Below are positions 41,735-53,536 of a stretch of 59,105 nucleotides of DNA, in pieces. Source of the DNA: Planctomycetota bacterium. GTDB taxonomy: Bacteria; Planctomycetota; Planctomycetia; Planctomycetales; Planctomycetaceae. Where the stretch lies: contig QWQG01000246.1 in NCBI GenBank assembly GCA_003670925.1, positions 1-59,105 on the forward strand, read 5' to 3'. How positions within the stretch are numbered: the stretch's first letter is position 1; every line of letters starts with the position of its first letter. Made by a program: the position numbers and the translations under genes. The notes beneath the pieces are model-generated. The model did not search any database. It was given only the letters and a program-made list of their open reading frames with translations, and was not told the DNA's origin.

Positions 41735-42067
41735 ATGTGTGTGATTGAATTCCGACATCGTGAGAGCAACTTGATACTCCGCAGGGGTCTAAGTGCGGCC
41801 TTTGCTTGGCGCCGAAGTCGTGTGACTTCAGCTTGCATGCTGGCAGGCCTCCGAATTCTTACGAATCAGGCCACATCTCTGTGCACCGGCCGTGAGTATA
41901 GCAACACAAGTGCAAAGGGCCATCTGTTGCCGCAAGAAATCGTACGGTACGCCACCTCTCATCTTTGCGACGGACTCAGTCAGGCACATGAGTTAGGTCT
42001 CATCCACCGGCATCTCATGCCGGCGAACGTGGGGAAGCAGAACGCTCGACTCACAACAATTCGATAA
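41735..42067 (+). pseudogene. Remnant of a Ser/Thr protein kinase
   Basis: The C-terminal part of this 110-residue frame reads LLPQEIVRYATSHLCDGLSQ followed by AHELGLIHRHLMPANV. That is the alpha-E helix and catalytic loop of a Hanks-type kinase (usually AHE-GLVHRDIKPANL). The catalytic Asp and the Lys are replaced (HRHLMPAN), and neither the ATP-binding N-lobe nor the DFG motif is present. The first 50 residues are not recognisable. The end overlaps the stop of the DUF1501 gene on the other strand by 17 bp. It is best read as a decayed kinase fragment; expression is unlikely. Confidence 0.55.
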
Positions 42068-43439
42068 TTGGGGTACCTTCGGGAAGGAGCGGGATTGGTC
42101 GACCAGCGTTCGTCACGGTGTATCGTGTTAAGTCGATTCCCAAATGTCGGTAGATGGTGGCAAGGACGTCGGTCGGCGAGACCGGGCGATTGGCGGGAAC
42201 CTCACCGTTGGCACTGGAAGTACCGATCACTTGGCCAACTTGGAGTCCACCGCCGGCAATTAAAATACTCATCAACGAGCCCCAGTGATCACGACCACCG
42301 GTAGGGTTAATGCGTGGAGTCCGGCCAAATTCTCCCCAGACAACCAAGAGAACTTTGCGATCGAGACTGCGTTCGTAAATGTCGGTGATTAAGGCTGCGA
42401 GCATCTGATCGAGCGGTGGTCCCGAAATATCCATCCCGCGTGAGGGGCCGTCAGTACCGTCAACCGGCCGGTGATCGTTGACGATATTTCGGTGCCAATC
42501 CCAACAGAGTGAGTCGGGGGCGGTGTTAAGCGTCACAAAAGTGACTCCCGATTCAACCAACCTACGAGCCAATAAACCCATTTGCCCCCAACGATGTCTC
42601 CCATAGCGATCACGTGTCGCCGTTGATTCTTCATTAAGATCAAATGCTCGGCGGGCAGTTCCACTAGTCAACATCTCCAATGCAGTTTGCATAAAACTGC
42701 CATTTCCGTCGAACGCACGAACCATCTCGGCTTGTCGTGAGAATCGGTCAAGGTTCAGTAATAGTGATCGTCTGTCGGCAACGCGTGCTAAGGTGAAATC
42801 GTCTGCAAGTGTAAGGTTCGATGTTGCACGGATAAGCTTTTCCTGCTGAAAATCAGGCTGAAACGAATCTTGCAGAATCGTGAATGGCGCGTGCTGAGAT
42901 CCCAGATACGCGGAACGCATCACGGTCGCAATTTCTGGATTCCTAGTTTGTTCTTCAGAGAGCAGGACATAGGGCGGGACTCCGGGATTGATAGCCCCTC
43001 GAAACCGTGATACGATCGAACCCGACGATGGATGCGTGCTTCGGTTGCTTTCGTTGGGATAACCTGTTGAGCACCAATGTGCACCGGAAAAATGATTGTT
43101 TGTCGCATGCGTGACCGTACGAATGATGGCTGCCCGATCAAGAACCATCGCCGTGCGCGGCAGCGTCTCACAAAATGACACGCCCGGCAACTTCGTCTGA
43201 ATTGTCGAGTATGGACCGCGGATCTCCGCAGGAGCTTCTGGCTTTGGATCAAATGTCTCAAACTGACTCGGTCCACCGCCCAACCACACTTGGATGACAG
43301 AAGTATCAGGTGTTGATTGCCCACGCGACTCAGCTTGAGCTTGAAGTTGGAGGATGTCCTCCAACGCCAGACCCACACCACCCGCAGTTAAACTTGCCTG
43401 TAAAAAATGACGCCTCGACCGTGGCATATGACTCTTCAT
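42051..43439 (-). CDS. DUF1501 family protein, Tat-exported (orphan)
   Basis: A 462-residue DUF1501 protein with a twin-arginine signal (RSRRHFLQASLTAGGVGLAL). Family blocks: VIQVWLGGGPSQFETFDPKP, THATNNHFSGAHWCSTGYP, RRWGQ-type segment GQMGLLARRLVESGVTFVTL, WDWHRNI, VLLVVWGEFGRTPRINPTGG, RDHWGSLMSILIAGGGLQVG and HLGIDLTRYTVTNAGRPIPL. The start at 43439 follows AGGGAGAAG at good spacing; a longer frame to 43481 is open. No DUF1549/DUF1553 partner is adjacent. It is the only gene on its transcript as far as can be seen. Confidence 0.9.
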   Translation of the reverse strand: MKSHMPRSRRHFLQASLTAGGVGLALEDILQLQAQAESRGQSTPDTSVIQVWLGGGPSQFETFDPKPEAPAEIRGPYSTIQTKLPGVSFCETLPRTAMVLDRAAIIRTVTHATNNHFSGAHWCSTGYPNESNRSTHPSSGSIVSRFRGAINPGVPPYVLLSEEQTRNPEIATVMRSAYLGSQHAPFTILQDSFQPDFQQEKLIRATSNLTLADDFTLARVADRRSLLLNLDRFSRQAEMVRAFDGNGSFMQTALEMLTSGTARRAFDLNEESTATRDRYGRHRWGQMGLLARRLVESGVTFVTLNTAPDSLCWDWHRNIVNDHRPVDGTDGPSRGMDISGPPLDQMLAALITDIYERSLDRKVLLVVWGEFGRTPRINPTGGRDHWGSLMSILIAGGGLQVGQVIGTSSANGEVPANRPVSPTDVLATIYRHLGIDLTRYTVTNAGRPIPLLPEGTPIIELL

Positions 43440-43813
43440 AGACTTCTCCCTACAACTGAAGTCCCATGCAAACGCGTCCAACGACCAGAGGCGTCGGCGT
43501 TGTACGTTTCAGCACCGTGTAATTTATTGCAAATAGTCAAACAGCCGATTCTGACTTCGTCGGTCTTCTTCGAGTGAACAGCTTCGTCTCTGTCGCAACA
43601 CTTCAAACACTGTAGCCCACTTTTTGTAATGCCTGCTTTCGCGCCAGCTAGGTGCGAGGGTACCAGCGACTGGAAGCCAATGCGAGAGAAGTCGCACGGC
43701 AAAATTGACCGTGATGTGGGTCGGTGGCACCATGGCGGAGTCAAGTCTCCAATCCCATCATTTGGCGGTGCTCAAGACCTGCTCCTTCAAGCCCCGAAGT
43801 CGAGTTAGACTTT
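43440..43813. other. Intergenic region
   Basis: This gap lies between two genes on the minus strand, the DUF1501 protein and the alpha/beta hydrolase. Two overlapping minus-strand frames (43436-43744 and 43524-43733) show no family motif. Apart from the DUF1501 ribosome-binding site at about 43443-43451, nothing is recognised. Confidence 0.35.
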
Positions 43814-45763
43814 TTAAGGTTTCACAATACTGTGGTTCTCCCACGTCTCGTCGAAATAGCCTGCACGCATGACTTCCTCAGGAAATACAGAGGAGGTTGG
43901 GTGCCATTGATCTGATCCGGGTAAGATTTTCAGCATGGCCCAATCGCCCAGACGCGGAAACAGCAGATAATTGAACGCCGCGAACTCCTTCTCATGGAAC
44001 GTGTGGCCGCTGTTGATGACAAGGTAGCGGTTGGTAGCGAGCGGGCTGGCACAAATGAAAACGGGCGCGTGGTGCTGCGCGGGATACGTGTCTTCGTAGA
44101 TGCTGACGTCATCGGGCGTCCAGTTGACAGGTAGATCAGGCAATGCCTTGGTGATCCACGAGTTGCTTCCGGGATCGCCAAAGAGAATCAAGTGTTTATC
44201 GCGCACATCGGCTTCGGTCACCTCGGTATCGTTCTTGACCGGCAGCTTGCCTCGCATGTAGCGCGCCCATTCATATTCGAAGCGTCGTAGGCTAGCCAAT
44301 GCCCACGCATTCACTTCAGAGTTCCATGGTTTCCCAGTACCACGCACGCATAGGAACGGTGTGCAGAAAGCATCATCAATGGGCCCTTGAAGGCCTAGGC
44401 GCTTTCCGGTGGATACCACGTCATTGCGTTCACCAAGGCATTGCCATTCACCGTTTTGCTGTGAGAAAACGAGTGCCGAATTGTGTTTCGGGAAGGCAAC
44501 CTTCATTCCCGCAATGCTCAATCCTGCGCCAGCCTTTTTCAGCATTGGTGGATGAATGGAAAACTGCGTGATATTTGTCGGAGCCGCAATCTCGATACTG
44601 CCATCATCGGCCACGTTGGCTATGATCTCCGCGCGTTCGTAGTGACGATTGATCGCGATTATTTCGAGCCAGTGACAACGGTTGTACTTCAGCGTCCAAG
44701 TGACGAAGCGAAGGTGCCGCGGTGCATGGTCGAGCCCCCTTGCGGTATATTCGGCGATGCAACGCATCTGCTCGGCGTGTGTCACAGGATCAATGACATG
44801 GCCCGTGCCCGGCGAGATCAGATTGACGAGTTGCAATTTCTCCTTCGCAAACGCTTCTCCCATAATGACGTGGGCCTGAAAGAACACGTCTTGGTCACCG
44901 ATGGCCGCGATCGTGGGCACGACACCGGCATTCGCGGCATAGTCGACCGAATCCAGCATGTGCAGCCCTCGTTCTTGGTGCTCAGGCAATGGGCCGACTT
45001 TGATGAATCCCGGAATCGGCGTCTCGGAAAAGCGATGCGTATCGACATATCCGCAATATGGCCCTAACGCGACAAAGCGATCCGGATGCTTTAATCCCAG
45101 ATGCCACGTGCCGGACGCACCCATCGACATGCCGCGGAGGACGATGCGGTCTCGATCAATGCTGTAGTTGCGACAGACCGCTTCAATCGCTTCGAACACA
45201 TCCGTCTCACCCGCCCAACGATAGCAATTCTCGACGCGACCTAGCGGATGAAGTTCGATAAAGTCGACATCCGGCGCAGGTTTGTCATGCTCATCGCCTG
45301 CGTTAAAACGGGCACCGAATCGAAGTTCGCTGATACCTACGGGTTTTGAACTGCCGTGCAGCACAACATCGAGACGCATGGGGCGGGTGCTGTCGTAACT
45401 CTCCGGTACGATTACGCCATAGGGTTGCGTTGAGCCATCGACCGCAGAAACAAAGCCCCGTACGACTTTGCCCTTCTTTGTGGTCCAGTCTGTCTTTTTC
45501 GCTGCGAGTCCTGCGGCGCGTCGCAGCCCGCTAGCGAGAGCCTGCTTCACCAACGCTTCATCGCTTGGCGTCAGCGGAGTGTCATATCGCAGGGCCCAGA
45601 CAACGCCTTTGTGAAACAACTCGACATCGGCATGTAAATCAGGATTTGCTGGATTGAGGTTTGCAAGCTTTGCCTCGAGCTGATTCGCGGTGTCCTGTAG
45701 TTCTTCGCCTAGAGCCACTGCGGCGAACAGGATAAGACTGGAGATCGTGAGCAATGTCTTCAT
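43814..45763 (-). CDS. Secreted alpha/beta hydrolase (prolyl-oligopeptidase-like esterase)
   Basis: A 649-residue secreted protein with a signal peptide (MKTLLTISSLILFAAVALGE). The hydrolase domain begins at about residue 115 (QPYGVIVPESYDSTRPMRLD, VVLHGSS). It carries RIVLRGMSMGASGTWHLGLK with the nucleophile serine in GMSMG, AIGDQDVFFQAHVIMGEAF, and TGHVIDP with the likely catalytic His. The C-terminal 280 residues (HLRFVTWTLKYNRCHWLEII) form a separate beta-rich domain found in planctomycete prolyl-oligopeptidase-like proteins. It probably acts on an ester or peptide polymer outside the cytoplasm; the substrate is unknown. The frame is open to 45811, but the start at 45763 fits the signal. 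Confidence 0.83.
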   Translation of the reverse strand: MKTLLTISSLILFAAVALGEELQDTANQLEAKLANLNPANPDLHADVELFHKGVVWALRYDTPLTPSDEALVKQALASGLRRAAGLAAKKTDWTTKKGKVVRGFVSAVDGSTQPYGVIVPESYDSTRPMRLDVVLHGSSKPVGISELRFGARFNAGDEHDKPAPDVDFIELHPLGRVENCYRWAGETDVFEAIEAVCRNYSIDRDRIVLRGMSMGASGTWHLGLKHPDRFVALGPYCGYVDTHRFSETPIPGFIKVGPLPEHQERGLHMLDSVDYAANAGVVPTIAAIGDQDVFFQAHVIMGEAFAKEKLQLVNLISPGTGHVIDPVTHAEQMRCIAEYTARGLDHAPRHLRFVTWTLKYNRCHWLEIIAINRHYERAEIIANVADDGSIEIAAPTNITQFSIHPPMLKKAGAGLSIAGMKVAFPKHNSALVFSQQNGEWQCLGERNDVVSTGKRLGLQGPIDDAFCTPFLCVRGTGKPWNSEVNAWALASLRRFEYEWARYMRGKLPVKNDTEVTEADVRDKHLILFGDPGSNSWITKALPDLPVNWTPDDVSIYEDTYPAQHHAPVFICASPLATNRYLVINSGHTFHEKEFAAFNYLLFPRLGDWAMLKILPGSDQWHPTSSVFPEEVMRAGYFDETWENHSIVKP

Positions 45764-45949
45764 CGCTGCGAGGGCTATCATGAATGTGTGACCCGTTTGC
45801 CTAGTCGTCATGGAGGTGCCTTAATGAGAAATCTCAGTCCGCAGAATTGTCGCCCCGTGAGTCGGCAATGGTGGAGCAGGACACTCTGTCGAATCGTAGT
45901 CCCGTTGAAAATGTCCACAAGCGTAGTTCTGAAATCTATGGTCGCGGCC

Positions 45950-47071
45950 TTAGCGCAGCAACGCGATTTCAACATTGAGGCCTGGGCCAAATCCGAGCAT
46001 CACGCAGGGAAGACTCGCGTTGCGCGTGCGCAGTTCGTCCAGAATGAACAATACCGTCGGCGATGACATGTTGCCACAGCGTTGGAAGACGCTGATGGAG
46101 GGGTCAATCTGGGCATCGGAAAGTTCTGCGGCTGCGACCGTAGCGGCCAGGATTCTCGGGCCACCGGGATGAATGGCCCAGCTCTTGATTTCACTCCGCG
46201 TCAGGCCATTCCGCCCCAGAAATTCATGGAGAGCGCCGGGCAGCGAACGCGTGATTACGCCGGGAACCTCGGGGGACAAAGTCATTTGAAATCCGTTGTC
46301 TCCAATTTTCCATGTCATCAGCTCGCTCGTGTCAGGAATGACAAATGAGTAGTTGTCCACAAGCCGGCCGGGAAGCTTTTGTGAGTGGCCGTCGCTGTGA
46401 GCGGTTGCGCGGCCGATGATTGTGGCGGCACCATCTGCGAAGAGTGAATTTGCCACGATCTGCTGCGGATCCCAGCCATACTGATGATGCAGCGTGCAGA
46501 GTTCCACGGCACACATAGCGACAACAGCGTGCGGGTTGGCTGCGGCGAAACTATGGGCCACGCGGAGGCCGTTCAGGGCGCCGTGACAGCCCATGAAGCC
46601 AACGTGCGTCCGCGCAACGCTCCGGGCAAATCCGAGATTCTCAATCAGATACAAATCTACGCCCGGAGCGCTGAAACCGCTGCAGGAGACGGTGATCAAG
46701 TGGGTGATTTCGCTCGGATCGATATTCGCTTCCTTGATGGCTTTGGCAGTGGCTTTCAACGCAATCTTGGGGGCCTCGATCTCGAAGCGATTCATGCGTT
46801 TGGCGGTGCTCGGTCCGCGATCTTCAGGTCCTTTGACAAATTCGAAGAAGCGTTCGGCAGTCGCTTCATCGTCCGAAGAGGATTCTAGCAGCACACTGTG
46901 ACGCGATTGGACACCAGCCCGGCGATACAACGCCTCAATCAGTCCTGTTGGATTTTTTGAACCCGTTAATTCTGGCGCAACACAGGTGGTTGCGAATGTC
47001 GCCATGCCGGCTTGTGAAATCGAATGCTCGGGCAACGCTGTGCCAAGGCCAAGTATCTCAAGACTGTGCAT
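45950..47071 (-). CDS. Type III polyketide synthase (chalcone synthase-like)
   Basis: A 373-residue type III PKS that condenses malonyl-CoA units onto an acyl-CoA starter. The catalytic triad is complete: Cys162 in THVGFMGCHGALNG, His301 in SWAIHPGGPRIL and Asn334 in RCGNMSSPTV; the GFGPG loop (LGFGPGLNVE, about 360) closes the active site. The product cannot be predicted, but bacterial relatives make alkylpyrones, alkylresorcinols or phloroglucinol. The ATG at 47071 shares its A with the TGA of the FAD-reductase gene upstream, so the two are translationally coupled. The frame is open to 47176, but the longer start has no family counterpart. Confidence 0.94.
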   Translation of the reverse strand: MHSLEILGLGTALPEHSISQAGMATFATTCVAPELTGSKNPTGLIEALYRRAGVQSRHSVLLESSSDDEATAERFFEFVKGPEDRGPSTAKRMNRFEIEAPKIALKATAKAIKEANIDPSEITHLITVSCSGFSAPGVDLYLIENLGFARSVARTHVGFMGCHGALNGLRVAHSFAAANPHAVVAMCAVELCTLHHQYGWDPQQIVANSLFADGAATIIGRATAHSDGHSQKLPGRLVDNYSFVIPDTSELMTWKIGDNGFQMTLSPEVPGVITRSLPGALHEFLGRNGLTRSEIKSWAIHPGGPRILAATVAAAELSDAQIDPSISVFQRCGNMSSPTVLFILDELRTRNASLPCVMLGFGPGLNVEIALLR

Positions 47072-48339
47072 CAAATAATTTCCAAGGCTTTTGGAACCCG
47101 ATTGATCCGGTTGACCAGATGCTGGGTTAACGACGGGAAAAATTGGCAAGTTGTCATCACTGGTGGCAGCAGCCATCGATGTCGGAGAGTTGCTGACAAC
47201 AAGCGACAGATCTTCTGCTGAGTGCGCGTGATATCATGGAAGGACGATTGCCAGCCTCTGACGAGTTCATCCGACCAGCTATTGCGAATCGCTGAGACCA
47301 CGAAAGGGATTGCGGCCGTCGCTGCCGTAAGAGCCCAGGCCATACCTTCACCAGTAAATGGTTCGACGTAGCCCGTGGAATCTCCCAGCAGGAACAGGCG
47401 ATGCCCTGCGATGCGTCGGGCGGATCGAGTCAGCGGGACCGTGCCTTTAATGGTGGCACTCCGGAGTTCCTGCGGCATTGGAACACCTGCTGAACGAAAG
47501 ATATTTGCGAGGCAATCCAGCGGCGAATTCGACTTGTTCAGGTACGAGGGATCGATTGCGGCGGCAAGATTCAGTTGGTTGTTTTCGATCTCTACAACCC
47601 CCGCATATCCCTGCGGCGCCACGGCCATCAGCACTTCACTTTGTTGGATCCACGCATCAGCAGCTGTACGAGGAAAAACGGCTCCCAGACCGATGCGGGA
47701 GCCAAGCACGGGCTCGGCGGTAAAAGATGGAAGAAGATGGAGGCTGGGATGGCCGAGCCCATCGCAGACGAGGACGATTTTTGTCGAGAGTTTCGCCTGC
47801 CGCGACGCGTGCCTGTCAGCATCGGTTTTGGGGGGGCAATTGGCAGCATGCGGATGCTGGAATCGCAGGAGAAGCGTGCGTTCTTCCGGGAGATCCAACA
47901 TGCGAGAGGCAATGGTTTTCCGGGGAATTTTATCGGATTCGATCGGCTGAACCGCTGCCGTGACTTCGTCTATGAATTGACAACCGGAAGCAATTGCTTC
48001 AGTGACAAGCCACTGATCCATTGCGCGCCGTGAAACCGCAAAGCTCGTCGGCATCGTGACATTGAGTTTGCGGCCGCGATACCGCACGGCCAGCGACGAC
48101 GTTGTCGCCGGTTGAAGTTGTCGCAGTCCGGATTCCAAGCCTGCCTGCTTGAGTAATTGGAATGCGCGGCCATTCACGCAACAACCACAGACTTTGTGAC
48201 GCGGAAAGCGGTGCCGTTCCAGCAGCACTGTTCGCAATCCCGCGCGCGAACACAACAAGCCAGCCATTGAACCGGCGATGCCCGCTCCAATAATTGCGAC
48301 ATCGTAATCTTGAGCGTCGATGGTATGACTATTCGACAT
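47071..48339 (-). CDS. FAD-dependent oxidoreductase (geranylgeranyl-reductase-like)
   Basis: A 422-residue flavoprotein of the PHBH/geranylgeranyl-reductase group. The FAD site is YDVAIIGAGIAGSMAGLLCS, followed by LLERHRFPRHKVCGCCVNGR (a cysteine-containing motif), and RLFLLGDSTGYVEPFTGEG about residue 330. It may reduce or hydroxylate the polyketide or an isoprenoid tail (inference). It is the middle gene of a three-gene cassette: it overlaps the methyltransferase by 11 bp and is coupled to the type III PKS by TGATG. Confidence 0.9.
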   Translation of the reverse strand: MSNSHTIDAQDYDVAIIGAGIAGSMAGLLCSRAGLRTVLLERHRFPRHKVCGCCVNGRAFQLLKQAGLESGLRQLQPATTSSLAVRYRGRKLNVTMPTSFAVSRRAMDQWLVTEAIASGCQFIDEVTAAVQPIESDKIPRKTIASRMLDLPEERTLLLRFQHPHAANCPPKTDADRHASRQAKLSTKIVLVCDGLGHPSLHLLPSFTAEPVLGSRIGLGAVFPRTAADAWIQQSEVLMAVAPQGYAGVVEIENNQLNLAAAIDPSYLNKSNSPLDCLANIFRSAGVPMPQELRSATIKGTVPLTRSARRIAGHRLFLLGDSTGYVEPFTGEGMAWALTAATAAIPFVVSAIRNSWSDELVRGWQSSFHDITRTQQKICRLLSATLRHRWLLPPVMTTCQFFPSLTQHLVNRINRVPKALEII

Positions 48340-49069
48340 TGACGTCGCAATCGTTGGGACGCCAAGCCATCGTGAATCGTTGCGGCCAGTGATGCTCCAG
48401 CGTGGCGAATTGAAGTCCAGCCTTTGCGGCTATGCCCAACGCCTCGTTCGAAGTAAATGCACCTTCGACAGACATTGGCCCATCAACATGAACGACATGG
48501 CATCGCGTAAGAATTCGGCAACCTAGCCACGCGAGCCAATAACCAAGCCGCGTACGTCGTAGATCATCCACGAGGACTAGTTGCGTTGCCGCCGCTCTCA
48601 TGCGTTGCAGTAACAGAATGGCATCTGCATTGTTCAGATGATGCAGAAACAAGCTGCACATCACGACATCGTATTTGGGCTGAGGAAAAGGCTGCTGCAG
48701 GGCGTCGCACTCAAAGAATCTGACGTTGTCATAATTAGCCACTGCTGCCTCGTCTGTGGCAAAAATCACAGCGGTGGGGCTGATGTCGCATCCATCGATC
48801 ATGATCGAAACGCCACATCGTTTCGCGTGACTTGCGAGGCGAATGGCAAGATCGCCACTGCCAGCGGCAATGTCCAAAATGGTCAGTGGGCCTTCACCCG
48901 GATTCAGCAAGGCCTGTTTGCGGATTTCTTTCCAGACCGTTCTGTCTGATCGACTCCAGCAGTTAATCCGTCTCAGTCCTGCCAATGCCTGATGATGAGT
49001 GGCTTCGTTCAGCGACGGATCATCCATTAATTCAGATTGGCGATTTCGAGAGGAGAGATGAGTCTGCAT
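48329..49069 (-). CDS. SAM-dependent methyltransferase (UbiE-like)
   Basis: A 246-residue class I methyltransferase. Motif I is LTILDIAAGSGDLAIRLASH (about residues 60-79). Next are IDGCDISPTAVIFATDEA, FFECDALQQPFPQPKYDVVM, and CSLFLHHLNNADAILLLQRM. The DDLRRTRLGYWLAWLG stretch after it is typical of methyltransferases next to type III PKS genes. It is the first gene of the cassette and overlaps the FAD gene by 11 bp. A C- or O-methyl transfer to the polyketide is plausible. Confidence 0.9.
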   Translation of the reverse strand: MQTHLSSRNRQSELMDDPSLNEATHHQALAGLRRINCWSRSDRTVWKEIRKQALLNPGEGPLTILDIAAGSGDLAIRLASHAKRCGVSIMIDGCDISPTAVIFATDEAAVANYDNVRFFECDALQQPFPQPKYDVVMCSLFLHHLNNADAILLLQRMRAAATQLVLVDDLRRTRLGYWLAWLGCRILTRCHVVHVDGPMSVEGAFTSNEALGIAAKAGLQFATLEHHWPQRFTMAWRPNDCDVNVE

Positions 49070-49324: not shown

Positions 49325-50722
49325 TCATACCTCAACCAAGGTGCCAGTACTATCGGCGAAATTCTGGGTTTCGACTCCTAGACGCTGCAGCATGGTGACA
49401 AACAGATTTGAGAGTGGGATGTCCTCGCGTGTGGCGGCCTGTTGCCACGGTTCGGTGCCCCCGTCCCAAGCGCCTCCCGCTTGATCTTGACCGGCGTAAT
49501 TGAGGTACTGCCCATGCTTGAACCCCATGTTTCTGCCGCCGGTTAGAATCAACGGATAGTTGCGGGACAGGTGAAAAGCACTCGAGGCGGAACCGAATAG
49601 CAGCAGGGTGTTGTCGAGCATATTACCGTTGCCACCGGGTTCGGCAGTCGCCTTTAGCTTTTCGGCGAAGCGTCCGTATTCTTCGCTGAGGAATCGACAG
49701 TAGGTGCCAAAGTTCTGCCAGCCGCCAGGTTCCTTCGTCTCGTGTGTCAGTTGATGAGTCAGATTGAACCCCACAGCGCGAGCCAGATAGTCACTGACGC
49801 CGATGCCGTTTTCTCTGCCGATCTGGTACGTCGCAACTCGCGTAGAATCGGTCTGAAAGGCGAGGTAGATCAGTTCGAACATCGTCTGGAGATAACCCCG
49901 TGGATCTTCATGTGTGATGTCGAGTTTCAAGTGATCGACATTCACGGTGGGGAACGGAATATTGAACCACCGTTTTGCCTTTTCGACTTTGACCTCGGTG
50001 TCGCGAACCGACTGGAGATATTCGTCCAGCGACTTCTGATCGGAGGTCGACAGTGTCGTTCGCAAAGAATTTGCATCAACCAGAAGATCATCCAATGAAC
50101 TTTGACTCAGCGCGAGACGACGGGCTGCGTCATCATCGCTCTTCACAAACAGTTGGTCAAAAATCCGCTTAGGCCGATGCTCTGCGGGAATCGCTCGCCC
50201 GCTGCGATTGAACGACACGGTGTGCGTACCACGTGGGGTTCCCGTACCACCATCGGTTGACATGACGAGCGATGAAAAGCGAGTTTCCGCCCCAACGTGC
50301 GCGGCAAATTCTTGATCGAGCGAGATGGAGTTTGTGTAATCACCCGAAGGCCCTGTGGGCGCACCGGTGAGAAACTGGTCAGCATTTGAATGGCCGTGGA
50401 TGTTTCGCGCCGAGGGATGCGATAAACCTGACAAAACCGTCATCTCATTGCGAAGTGGCTCCAGTGGCTCAAGGCATTTTGTGAGCTTGAAATCCTGCCC
50501 ATTGCCATGTGGAAACCACGCCCAGTCCTGATACGCTGGGTCTTCTGCCAGCGGCATCGGCACGCCGTCAGGCATATAGAAACAGGCGAGCCGTTTTGGT
50601 GTCGCGGGCTGTTCAGCGGCACTGACGCGCTTGGCAAGGGAAGCAAACCAAGGCAGTGCGAGTGCGACTCCAGAACCGCGCAGGAACCTGCGGCGATCGA
50701 GCGATGCAAGATTGATTGGCAT
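49325..50722 (-). CDS. DUF1552 family protein, Tat-exported
   Basis: A 465-residue DUF1552 protein, relative of DUF1501 with the same fold class. The signal is twin-arginine type (LDRRRFLRGSGVALALPWFA). Blocks: LACFYMPDGVPMPLAEDPAY, LSGLSHPSARNIHGHSNADQ, SLDQEFAAHVGAETRFSSLV, LDDLLVDANSLRTTLSTSD, KSLDEYLQSVRDTEVKVEKA and TLLLFGSASSAFHLSRNYPL. It lies 57 bp after the DUF1592-type gene in the same direction. The pair DUF1592-DUF1552 is a standard planctomycete unit. The start at 50722 follows a short upstream open stretch to 50761, and the ATG at 50722 places the signal correctly. Confidence 0.92.
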   Translation of the reverse strand: MPINLASLDRRRFLRGSGVALALPWFASLAKRVSAAEQPATPKRLACFYMPDGVPMPLAEDPAYQDWAWFPHGNGQDFKLTKCLEPLEPLRNEMTVLSGLSHPSARNIHGHSNADQFLTGAPTGPSGDYTNSISLDQEFAAHVGAETRFSSLVMSTDGGTGTPRGTHTVSFNRSGRAIPAEHRPKRIFDQLFVKSDDDAARRLALSQSSLDDLLVDANSLRTTLSTSDQKSLDEYLQSVRDTEVKVEKAKRWFNIPFPTVNVDHLKLDITHEDPRGYLQTMFELIYLAFQTDSTRVATYQIGRENGIGVSDYLARAVGFNLTHQLTHETKEPGGWQNFGTYCRFLSEEYGRFAEKLKATAEPGGNGNMLDNTLLLFGSASSAFHLSRNYPLILTGGRNMGFKHGQYLNYAGQDQAGGAWDGGTEPWQQAATREDIPLSNLFVTMLQRLGVETQNFADSTGTLVEV

Positions 50723-50779
50723 GGTGTTCTCTTTCTTAATTAGACGCTGAGTTTCACCCACCCTTTGGGAGCATAGATT

Positions 50780-53536
50780 CTACTTCGATTGAAATAAATG
50801 GCTAGTCACAATCAGCGTGACCATTGTCGCAAGTCCATCCCCTTGGGTACGAAGATCGGCCGTGATTTGGTCCACACTGGACCAATCCCCAAATGTCAAA
50901 GGTCGTCCGAGTGCATACGTGGACATTTTATAGACCATGGCGCGGGCAAACTGGTCCTGTCGGTTCTCCAGCAGAAACCGTTTCAGTCCGTCGACACCGT
51001 CGAGCTTCTGACTATTAAAGAGCAAACTAGACGCATCGACTTGCTTCCCTTGAATTTGCGTTCGCCAGTTTCCCACAGCGTCAAAATTTTCGAAAGCGAT
51101 TCCCCATGGATCAATCTTGGCGTGACACGACATACAGGCCGCCTGATTTCGATGATTTTCCATCCGCTGCTTCAACGTGAGTTTAGCAATTTCGGGATCA
51201 GCAAGATCGATCACGGGAACGGCTGGCGGTGGCGGCGGTGGCGGATCGTTTAAGAGACTTTTGAGAATCCAGATGCCGCGTTTGAGCGGATGCGAATCTT
51301 TGCCGTCCGAATTCATGGCCAGCAGACCGGCTTGGGTCAGCAATCCGCCGCGATGTTGATTCGGATCGAGCGCCACGCGCCGAAAGTGGTTCCCGTCGAC
51401 GTGACTCAGTTCATAGTGATTTGCTAGTCTTTCATTGGCCATGGTGTAGTTTGCATGCAAGAAATCGAGCACACTGTGATTGTTGTGCAACACTTCTTGA
51501 AAGAAGGCGATCGGTTCCTGTTGCATCGCGTCTTTCAAGGCAGGGTCGAACTGAGGGTAGATCGTCGCATCGACGTGCAGGTAATCGAGCAACTGCATGC
51601 CTAGCCACTGACGAACAAACTGTTGTGAAAATCGTCTGGATCGTGGATCGGCGAGGAGTCGTTTGACTTGGCTCGCTAAAACATCACGATCGCTGAGTTG
51701 GCCCTTCGCCGCCAGTTCTAACAGCTCGTCATCGGGTGTGCTGCACCACAGGAACATCGAAAGACGGGTCGCTAATTCTGAATCGGACAACCGCTCGACG
51801 GTTGTGTCTCCGTTGTCTCCGTGCGGCTGGTCTGAATTAACAAGATAAAGGAACTTTGGCGAGGAGAGAACTGTCGCTAGAACTTCAAGAATCGCCTCTT
51901 GGAAGGAACTACATGCGGGGCGAATCTGCGTGAACAAGGCCAGTTTCTGGTCGACCTCTGCCACCGTGACAGGCCGCCGCCACGCTCGCGACATGAAACG
52001 TGTGAGCACTTCTTGCGCGAAGACAGACTCGTCTGCTTGATGGTCACTGTTGAAAAAGATACGCGTGTGCGAATCTGGCGGCCACTGCTCGTAAACTGGT
52101 GCCGTGATCTCCACAAAATCAAGCTGAATGTCACCGTGCGAGACCGAGCTGTTTACGAACTTCACGAACTCCGAAGGACTCGGCAAATCTCCCATCTTCC
52201 AAACTTTGCGCATCGAATTCCGGGGGTGAACTTCAGTCAGTGGAATGTCCCATTGATAAAATTGGGGTTGCCCCGGAGCAGCATCAATCACGATGTCTTG
52301 AAGACTGATCCGGACGGAGGCCTCCGAGTCGTTGCTTGCCTGCCAACCAAATTCCAGTTGCAGACTGGGACTGCGATCCTGATCGACCGACGTGCGAGAA
52401 GCACGGACGCGCACGCGAAGTGTTCCCGCGTCAGGTACAGTGTCGCCAAGTTCGATAATCAACTTTTTGCCAGGAGGGATGACCGCCACGTGATCGAAAT
52501 TTTCGGGGATGTCGCCGGGCGTTTGCGTGGGGGCCCATGCGTATTTCCCGCCACCGTAATCCCACGAGACTCCCGCGGCGCGTCCTGTACTCAGGTGCCT
52601 GTAGTGCGTCCCGTTCGGTCGGCTCTGAAAATCGGCCGTTCGTCGATCGAGTTCCTGTTTCAACATTTCAGGATCGTCTTTATGCTGCTGCCTGATCTGT
52701 TCCAGTTCTACTTCCTGAGCGGCCCAGGATTCTGTCGACGCGGCCTGCATGGAGACACCCCAGTAAATCGGGGTTGGCTGCTCACCAATCACCGTTGCTT
52801 TCTGCAAGGCACTCAGACTCAAGTCACGGTAGGCTGCAAACTGAATGGACGACATGTGCAGCATTTCAGAACTGTTCTGAAAACCGTCTTCCGATATGGA
52901 TTCTGGCGGCAAGTCTCTGGCAAAGTCATACGGAAGGCCGAGCAGATCTTGCAGCACGTAGTTGTACTCGTACCGCGTCATTCGCCGGAACGATGAATGC
53001 CCCTGCTCTGCCCGTCGCACGGCTGACGCAACTTGGATCTCCGACGAAAGCCACTCGATCAATTTAGTGCGATCATCATCCGTCAGTGTGGATTCAGCGA
53101 CAGGCGGCATTTCCCCATTACTCAAGACGGCAACAACTTCGAGCCACCAATTCACATCGCTCCCGTGCAAGAGATCGGGATTCAACGTATCGATCCGAAT
53201 GTGAGCCTCCTGCGTCTCAGGGCCATGGCATTGAACACACGCTTTTTCTAAGATCGGCCGGATGTCCTTTTGGAACGCTGCGAGTTGCGGCTCTGGTGCT
53301 TCTGTTCCGGCTGAACGCTGTTGCTGTTTTCGATAATTCGAGCGGATTGTTCCCGCCGTTTTCAGTTCTTCAAGCGTCAGAAGAGTCGAATCACGGCCTG
53401 TTTCCCGCGTCTTTTCGTGCTCCACGCTGGGGGCCGGGCCAGCGTTACCACTATTCTGTCCCGTGGCTGCTTGACTCAGGGCGCACAGCAAGGTGGTGAA
53501 CCAGAGGACGCATCGACATTCTTTGCTTGTGATCAT
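50780..53536 (-). CDS. DUF1592/DUF1588-type multi-domain cytochrome protein
   Basis: A 918-residue secreted protein with an N-terminal signal (VLWFTTLLCALSQAATG). The domains in order are: a planctomycete cytochrome c with CVQCHGPETQEAHIR (about residue 97); DUF1587 (RMTRYEYNYVLQDLLGLPYD); a beta-sandwich with a carbohydrate-binding look (about 340-480); DUF1595/DUF1592 (FMSRAWRRPVTVAEVDQKLA, LATRLSMFLWCSTPDDELLE, DPRSRRFSQQFVRQWLGMQL); DUF1588 (NQHRGGLLTQAGLLAMNSDG, ACMSCHAKIDPWGIAFENFD, with a second CXXCH); and DUF1585 at the end. A PPPPPP run sits at about residue 776. It is probably a periplasmic redox partner of the DUF1552 protein. Function is unknown. Confidence 0.92.
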   Translation of the reverse strand: MITSKECRCVLWFTTLLCALSQAATGQNSGNAGPAPSVEHEKTRETGRDSTLLTLEELKTAGTIRSNYRKQQQRSAGTEAPEPQLAAFQKDIRPILEKACVQCHGPETQEAHIRIDTLNPDLLHGSDVNWWLEVVAVLSNGEMPPVAESTLTDDDRTKLIEWLSSEIQVASAVRRAEQGHSSFRRMTRYEYNYVLQDLLGLPYDFARDLPPESISEDGFQNSSEMLHMSSIQFAAYRDLSLSALQKATVIGEQPTPIYWGVSMQAASTESWAAQEVELEQIRQQHKDDPEMLKQELDRRTADFQSRPNGTHYRHLSTGRAAGVSWDYGGGKYAWAPTQTPGDIPENFDHVAVIPPGKKLIIELGDTVPDAGTLRVRVRASRTSVDQDRSPSLQLEFGWQASNDSEASVRISLQDIVIDAAPGQPQFYQWDIPLTEVHPRNSMRKVWKMGDLPSPSEFVKFVNSSVSHGDIQLDFVEITAPVYEQWPPDSHTRIFFNSDHQADESVFAQEVLTRFMSRAWRRPVTVAEVDQKLALFTQIRPACSSFQEAILEVLATVLSSPKFLYLVNSDQPHGDNGDTTVERLSDSELATRLSMFLWCSTPDDELLELAAKGQLSDRDVLASQVKRLLADPRSRRFSQQFVRQWLGMQLLDYLHVDATIYPQFDPALKDAMQQEPIAFFQEVLHNNHSVLDFLHANYTMANERLANHYELSHVDGNHFRRVALDPNQHRGGLLTQAGLLAMNSDGKDSHPLKRGIWILKSLLNDPPPPPPPAVPVIDLADPEIAKLTLKQRMENHRNQAACMSCHAKIDPWGIAFENFDAVGNWRTQIQGKQVDASSLLFNSQKLDGVDGLKRFLLENRQDQFARAMVYKMSTYALGRPLTFGDWSSVDQITADLRTQGDGLATMVTLIVTSHLFQSK

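Follow-up and report, generated by a model that had tools for sequence, protein, structure and literature searches.

A planctomycete operon of the hidABC type encoding a methyltransferase, an FAD-dependent oxidoreductase, and a type III polyketide synthase, and its predicted methylated alkylresorcinol product

Described operons and the copy in the window

In a survey of 131 planctomycete genomes, 96 type III polyketide synthase (PKS) genes were reported, 58 of which stand last in an operon that runs from a methyltransferase through a flavin adenine dinucleotide (FAD)-dependent oxidoreductase to the PKS (Milke et al. 2024, PMC10896814). The same report likens this arrangement to hidABC of Cyanobium, the genes for hierridin B, and discusses transfer between phyla. 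A further copy of this system, which is already described in planctomycetes and picocyanobacteria, lies on contig QWQG01000246.1 of a Planctomycetota bacterium (assembly GCA_003670925.1; genome of 5.78 Mb, 99.5% complete), within a stretch of 59,105 nucleotides that we call the window. The operon very probably directs the formation and methylation of an alkylresorcinol core, and hydroxylation of the ring by its FAD enzyme is also favored, with considerably less confidence. An initial annotation of the window had singled out these genes as the best candidate for an undescribed product, but both the operon and the class of its core product are already published for the phylum (PMC10896814).

Six planctomycete PKSs have been expressed in C. 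glutamicum, and pentadecyl- and/or heptadecylresorcinols were obtained with the enzymes of G. maris, R. baltica, S. maiorica, and 'S. ferox' (PMC10896814), a result that is restated elsewhere (PMC12078418). When the G. maris mtr and fdo genes were added, the product acquired one methylation, probably on a ring carbon, whereas HidA is reported to methylate oxygen (PMC10896814, PMC8086630). Hierridin B itself bears a ring hydroxyl (PMC10896814). In actinobacteria, other three-gene operons make polyketide quinones, which have been proposed to act as electron carriers (PMC9927152).

All three window genes lie on the minus strand. First comes a HidA-like class I S-adenosylmethionine-dependent methyltransferase (48329..49069; 246 amino acids), then a HidB-like FAD-dependent oxidoreductase that is probably an aromatic-ring monooxygenase (47071..48339; 422 amino acids), and last a HidC-like type III PKS, predicted to be a 5-alkylresorcinol synthase (45950..47071; 373 amino acids). 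In Pfam profile searches each product scored above the family cut-offs, with matches to Methyltransf_25 (E 1.2e-14), FAD_binding_3 (E 1.6e-15), and Chal_sti_synt_N and Chal_sti_synt_C (E 2.1e-24 and 2.3e-19), respectively. Read directly, the methyltransferase stop and the FAD enzyme start lie in an 11-base overlap (48329..48339, minus strand), bounded by the first base of the FAD enzyme ATG (48339) and the last base of the methyltransferase stop (48329), and the FAD enzyme stop shares one base with the PKS start in a TGATG (47069..47073) that reads 47073-47069 on the minus strand. The open reading frames, their order, strand, and overlaps agree with the initial annotation, which had described one tightly coupled unit. 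The same offsets of -11 and -1 bases recur in two related loci (L002 and L003), and because the Pfam matches exceed their cut-offs and the order and overlaps recur, the three-gene unit goes beyond chance. A mechanical call of open reading frames began the PKS at an in-frame upstream ATG at 47176, but the PKS alignments of relatives set in within a few residues of 47071, which is therefore taken as the start here. Spacing and conservation suggest that the three genes are co-transcribed; promoter-like and terminator-like sites were no commoner than in shuffled sequence.

The window operon has the features of the planctomycetal and hidABC type, namely the gene order with the PKS last, an intact catalytic triad, both Pfam PKS domains, and Met263. 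It shares the three families and their order with the surveyed planctomycete operons, whose PKSs average 371 amino acids against 373 in the window; alkylresorcinols have been shown for several operon-borne homologues (PMC10896814) and are predicted for the window copy. The hidABC genes of Cyanobium sp. LEGE 06113 (Costa et al. 2019, as described in PMC10896814 and PMC8086630) have the same order, and a Met at the CHS-F265 position is reported for the HidC clade, as in the window PKS. The actinobacterial srsABC/pkqABC operons encode the same three roles, an alkylresorcinol synthase, a methyltransferase, and an oxidoreductase/hydroxylase, but there the partners lie downstream of the PKS, in contrast to the upstream partners and terminal PKS of the window (PMC9927152, PMC6669644). 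In addition, SrsB is named an isoprenylcysteine carboxyl methyltransferase, whereas the window enzyme belongs to class I (PMC6669644). With neither the PKS-first order nor an isoprenylcysteine-type methyltransferase, the window operon was rejected as a member of that group, and its likeness to it is functional only.

Conservation among relatives and the neighboring genes

Conservation was assessed in the best 80 of 312 loci from a contig scan, a set that is biased toward near relatives. The initial annotation had proposed a search for the three-gene order in related genomes, where its absence would have told against that reading; the order proved to be conserved, with all three genes in the same order and on the same strand in 65 of the 80 loci. 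A further nine are truncated by a contig end (L006, L036, L038, L046, L051, L053, L061, L062, and L068). The remaining six deviate: L034 has the FAD gene and no methyltransferase match, and L025, L059, L066, L067, and L080 have a PKS with no partners just upstream, the sole trace in L080 being a weak match to an FAD domain 2 kb downstream of the PKS. Sorted by the phylum in the record title, complete operons were present in 35/43 loci from Planctomycetota, 16/18 from Cyanobacteriota, 6/7 from Gemmatimonadota, 4/4 from Hydrogenedentota, and 3/6 from Acidobacteriota, as well as in the single locus titled without a phylum (1/1) and not in the one mislabelled 'Bifidobacterium' (0/1). Judged from where the tblastn hits start, the FAD and PKS genes of the complete loci are spaced by a median of -1 base and overlap in 40 of 65. 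The 18 cyanobacterial loci carry PKSs that are 48-52% identical to the window PKS, values that concern the copies fetched, HidC itself lying outside the comparison. The nearest named relatives of the window's genome are metagenome bins.

In a set of 59 related genomes that includes G000, the PKS was matched at E <= 0.001 in 43 and strongly (E <= 1e-15) in 40, and the methyltransferase was matched in 52 and strongly in 39. Both were strong in 38 genomes, and their presence is strongly associated (Fisher p 5e-12, with kinship ignored). By coordinates, 35 of these 38 genomes have the two genes on a single contig, no more than about 4 kb apart; G024, G027, and G054 depart from this pattern. A strong PKS occurs alone in two genomes, in one of which (G005) it sits at a contig end (L087). 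Near the PKS in two other genomes are methyltransferase homologues with an in-frame stop, TGA in G032:C249:15177-15887 and TAA in G053:C1:6444716-6445423, which are perhaps decaying genes or assembly errors. In its own genome the window PKS is the sole match to PF00195 at E <= 0.001, and no second type III PKS was detected by that search.

Just beyond the PKS lies a gene for a secreted hydrolase (43814-45811), which the initial annotation had regarded as a possible partner. A different dedicated product, made with the hydrolase taking part, would accord with the position of this gene, which is on the same strand and only 138 bases past the PKS stop. However, a search of L002-L100, many of which have short flanks, gave no match to the hydrolase (E <= 1e-5), and this holds also for L002 and L003, whose flanks extend 6 kb to each side of the PKS. 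Its orthologues (77-78%) in G014 and G004 lie on contigs C61 and C52, whereas the PKS genes of these genomes lie on C4 and C65. We therefore reject the hydrolase as a fourth member of the operon, and a product that depends on it is extremely unlikely. More widely, the operon has DUF1501, DUF1552, and DUF1585-1595/planctomycete cytochrome genes on its two sides (42051-43481 and 49325-53536). Beside the operons of relatives, these flanking families gave only weak matches, at 24-37% identity (L013, L019, L062, and L098).

Active-site residues and the predicted product

The PKS alignment comprised the window sequence and 79 loci, with one of the 80 named loci dropped for coverage below 75%. The triad C162, H301, and N334, which had been annotated as intact, is invariant in all 80 sequences, as are Met263, F211, and C192. 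We take Met263 to occupy the position of CHS-F265 in CHS numbering. In phmmer alignments to solved structures, this residue falls opposite a Phe of the plant enzyme EnPKS2 and a Cys of PKS18. Comparison of active-site residues had been suggested at the outset, and at this position the window enzyme agrees with the HidC clade, for which Met at CHS-F265 is reported (Larsen et al. 2021, PMC8086630). By this analogy, the Met would favor a resorcinol over a pyrone. A further discriminator between the two products has been reported in Trp281 of ArsB versus a Gly of ArsC (PMC9927152). Identity as DpgA (3,5-dihydroxyphenylacetyl-CoA synthase, NF042429) was considered and rejected, the score of 155.7 bits being far under the cut-off of 425.

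PKS18, an alkylpyrone synthase (PMC8086630), is nonetheless the second-best solved-structure match to the window PKS (145.9 bits), and C192 aligns with the PKS18 Cys that is changed to Phe in the variant entry 1tee. Both points suggest that the window PKS might likewise be an alkylpyrone synthase. Set against them are the Cys of PKS18 opposite Met263, the Met reported in the resorcinol-making HidC clade (PMC8086630), and the resorcinols obtained from operon-borne homologues (PMC10896814), so that an alkylpyrone synthase appears very unlikely. An alkylresorcinol product is predicted by analogy with these homologues. In the pathway that we propose, the PKS would load a long-chain acyl thioester, probably of about C16-C18, and add three malonyl units. 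The resulting tetraketide would be closed by a C2-C7 aldol condensation to give a 5-alkylresorcinol. The methyltransferase would next methylate the ring, at either a carbon or an oxygen, and the FAD enzyme would most likely hydroxylate it, giving a methylated, extra-hydroxylated phenolic lipid, although these two steps may occur in another order.

The methyltransferase is 39-81% identical to its 50 aligned relatives, which represent 50 of 60 eligible loci after thinning for near-copies, and its invariant residues include D66, G70, D95, H143, H144, D169, R172, D196, and R231. It matches UbiE/COQ5 above the Pfam cut-off, and none of its nine Pfam matches at E <= 0.01 is of the isoprenylcysteine type; the NCBIfam model PRK06202 scored 205 bits, under its cut-off of 243. 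The predicted structure (pLDDT 94.7) was closest in fold comparisons by VIA to NovO (Z 21.1) and CouO (Z 21.0), the latter titled a C-methyltransferase, with yeast Coq5 at Z 19.7. Entries for the N-methyltransferase-type CysG(N-16) are level at Z 21.0, and because of this tie the likeness to NovO and CouO decides nothing between C- and O-methylation.

For the FAD enzyme, the predicted structure (pLDDT 92.4) has a fold of the flavin monooxygenase/halogenase type. The VIA matches to the model include the halogenases Bmp2 (Z 37.3) and PltA (Z 36.1), p-nitrophenol monooxygenase (Z 34.0), and p-hydroxybenzoate hydroxylase (Z 33.2), matches that indicate a common fold and do not in themselves give function. 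A halogenase was rejected despite these matches. The motif WxWxIP, which we take to mark two-component flavin-dependent halogenases, occurs in none of the 57 aligned FAD enzymes (56 of 67 eligible loci, thinned for near-copies). Residues invariant in this alignment include P46, R47, K49, C51, G52, D320, Y324, E326, and P327.

Given this fold, the reductase role in the initial annotation is doubtful. A reductase of the geranylgeranyl reductase kind, saturating the alkyl tail to leave a methylated, saturated alkylresorcinol, has in its favor the best NCBIfam match, to the geranylgeranyl reductase superfamily model TIGR02032 (108.5 bits), and an archaeal geranylgeranyl reductase-like structure, 3oz2, at rank 10 by VIA (Z 33.6). 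The profile score is nevertheless under the cut-off of 158.8, the halogenases rank higher by VIA, and p-hydroxybenzoate hydroxylase is about level with 3oz2. Moreover, heptadecenyl-methylresorcinol persists when G. maris fdo is co-expressed, and the ring of hierridin B bears its hydroxyl (PMC10896814). We consider such a reductase unlikely. The FAD enzyme would more likely be a ring hydroxylase, a preference that we base mainly on the ring hydroxyl of hierridin B and on the fact that this enzyme is the only oxidoreductase of the operon.

Several observations weigh against a hydroxylated alkylresorcinol from the window operon. The superfamily match just described points to reduction, and only 5 of the 57 FAD enzymes carry the complete DG-type motif (DG, 1-3 residues, SxxR) known from class A hydroxylases. 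In C. glutamicum, no oxidation product was detected with the FAD enzyme of G. maris, and the A. californiensis and P. limnophila PKSs, whose genes lie outside such operons, gave no detected product of any kind (PMC10896814). Overall, the proposal made in the initial annotation of a methylated, reduced polyketide lipid or pyrone holds in part. A methylated polyketide lipid is probable, a pyrone is disfavored by the resorcinols of homologues and by Met263, and reduction is in doubt.

The likeness to actinobacterial systems raises another reading, in which a methylated, ring-hydroxylated alkylresorcinol is oxidized to an alkylbenzoquinone that serves as a membrane redox carrier. The three enzyme roles are those of srsABC/pkqABC (PMC9927152, PMC6669644), the methyltransferase matches UbiE/COQ5 and the fold of yeast Coq5, and the probable ring C-methylation by the G. 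maris operon (PMC10896814) would also fit. However, PF02621 (the MqnA/MqnD family) was found in all 59 relatives, with or without the PKS, and because of this a quinone would supplement an existing carrier rather than replace it. No quinone was seen in C. glutamicum, and the S. maiorica PKS deletion mutant, whose operon is without an oxidoreductase, showed no growth or ampicillin phenotype (PMC10896814). The class I methyltransferase also differs from isoprenylcysteine-type SrsB (PMC6669644). A polyketide quinone is thus an improbable product. The fuller form of this idea, a C-methylated alkylbenzoquinone that supplements menaquinone in a second, non-actinobacterial polyketide-quinone lineage over five phyla, with the FAD enzyme as the ring hydroxylase, is marginally less probable still. 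The methylated alkylresorcinol, with its probable ring hydroxyl, remains our preferred product.

Occurrence in other phyla and its meaning

The families of the genomes that hold loci titled as Gemmatimonadota (L026), Hydrogenedentota (L037), and Acidobacteriota (L024) were searched for further copies. Full-length PKSs (E <= 1e-95, 47-51% identity) were found in 15 of 78 Gemmatimonadota genomes, an even draw from a larger group; the raw tally there was 56/78, of which eight beyond the 15 are at 36-39% identity and the remainder are weaker, these weaker matches probably being FabH-like. In Hydrogenedentota, 9 of 25 genomes have a full-length PKS and one a partial PKS (raw tally 14/25), and in Acidobacteriota a PKS is present in 4/5. 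Among 24 loci fetched from the three families, several of which coincide with the set of 80, all three genes are in order in 22, and the other two (L111 and L123) are without the methyltransferase because the contig ends there. Counted by title or family, the Gemmatimonadota operon loci are L026, L029, L041, L049, L073, L076, and L102-L110; those of Hydrogenedentota are L037, L050, L072, L074, and L112-L121; and those of Acidobacteriota are L024, L027, L030, L122, L124, and L125. Because the operon recurs in separate genomes, a binning error is an unconvincing explanation for these occurrences.

A quick tree of the 80 PKSs, midpoint-rooted and without outgroup clades, a more careful search being unfinished, places Hydrogenedentota (support 97), Gemmatimonadota (78), and Cyanobacteriota (99) each in one group, whereas Planctomycetota need four changes and Acidobacteriota three. 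The initial annotation had raised the possibility that the PKS falls in a characterized clade with a known product. This is approached insofar as the product class of operon-borne homologues is known; the tree holds Cyanobium/Synechococcus homologues, and the characterized HidC, G. maris, R. baltica, and S. maiorica enzymes lie outside it. Certain record titles are misleading. A bin titled 'Bifidobacterium breve' (L036) holds a cyanobacterial-type PKS that falls inside the cyanobacterial group, and the PKSs of bins titled 'Candidatus Kuenenia' (L003, L006, L035, and L075) group with titled Planctomycetaceae. The partnerless planctomycete PKSs (L025, L059, L066, L067 from Zavarzinella formosa, and L080) cluster together with support of 94, apart from the operon-borne PKSs. 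They possibly make a different product, as might the P. limnophila and A. californiensis enzymes.

The presence of the operon in a single family of each of the phyla Gemmatimonadota, Hydrogenedentota, and Acidobacteriota is new but modest, and it extends beyond the published idea of transfer between two phyla. For Acidobacteriota the finding is only partly new, because a type III PKS cluster from a sponge has been described that most resembles the hierridin cluster and is most closely related to one in an Acidobacteriota metagenome-assembled genome (PMC12795557). Literature searches for hierridin in Gemmatimonadetes turned up only a citation of a hierridin paper, and nothing on point was found for type III PKSs or alkylresorcinols in Gemmatimonadota in the portions of the literature covered, Hydrogenedentota not having been properly searched.

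Given the operon in three further phyla, a history of transfer confined to planctomycetes and cyanobacteria may be too narrow. If the quinone reading were true, polyketide quinones would occur across Planctomycetota, Cyanobacteriota, Gemmatimonadota, Hydrogenedentota, and Acidobacteriota. Those residues that do not vary across the aligned FAD enzymes and methyltransferases offer targets for the two matters that the 2024 study left for others, the role of the FAD enzyme and the identity of the native lipid.

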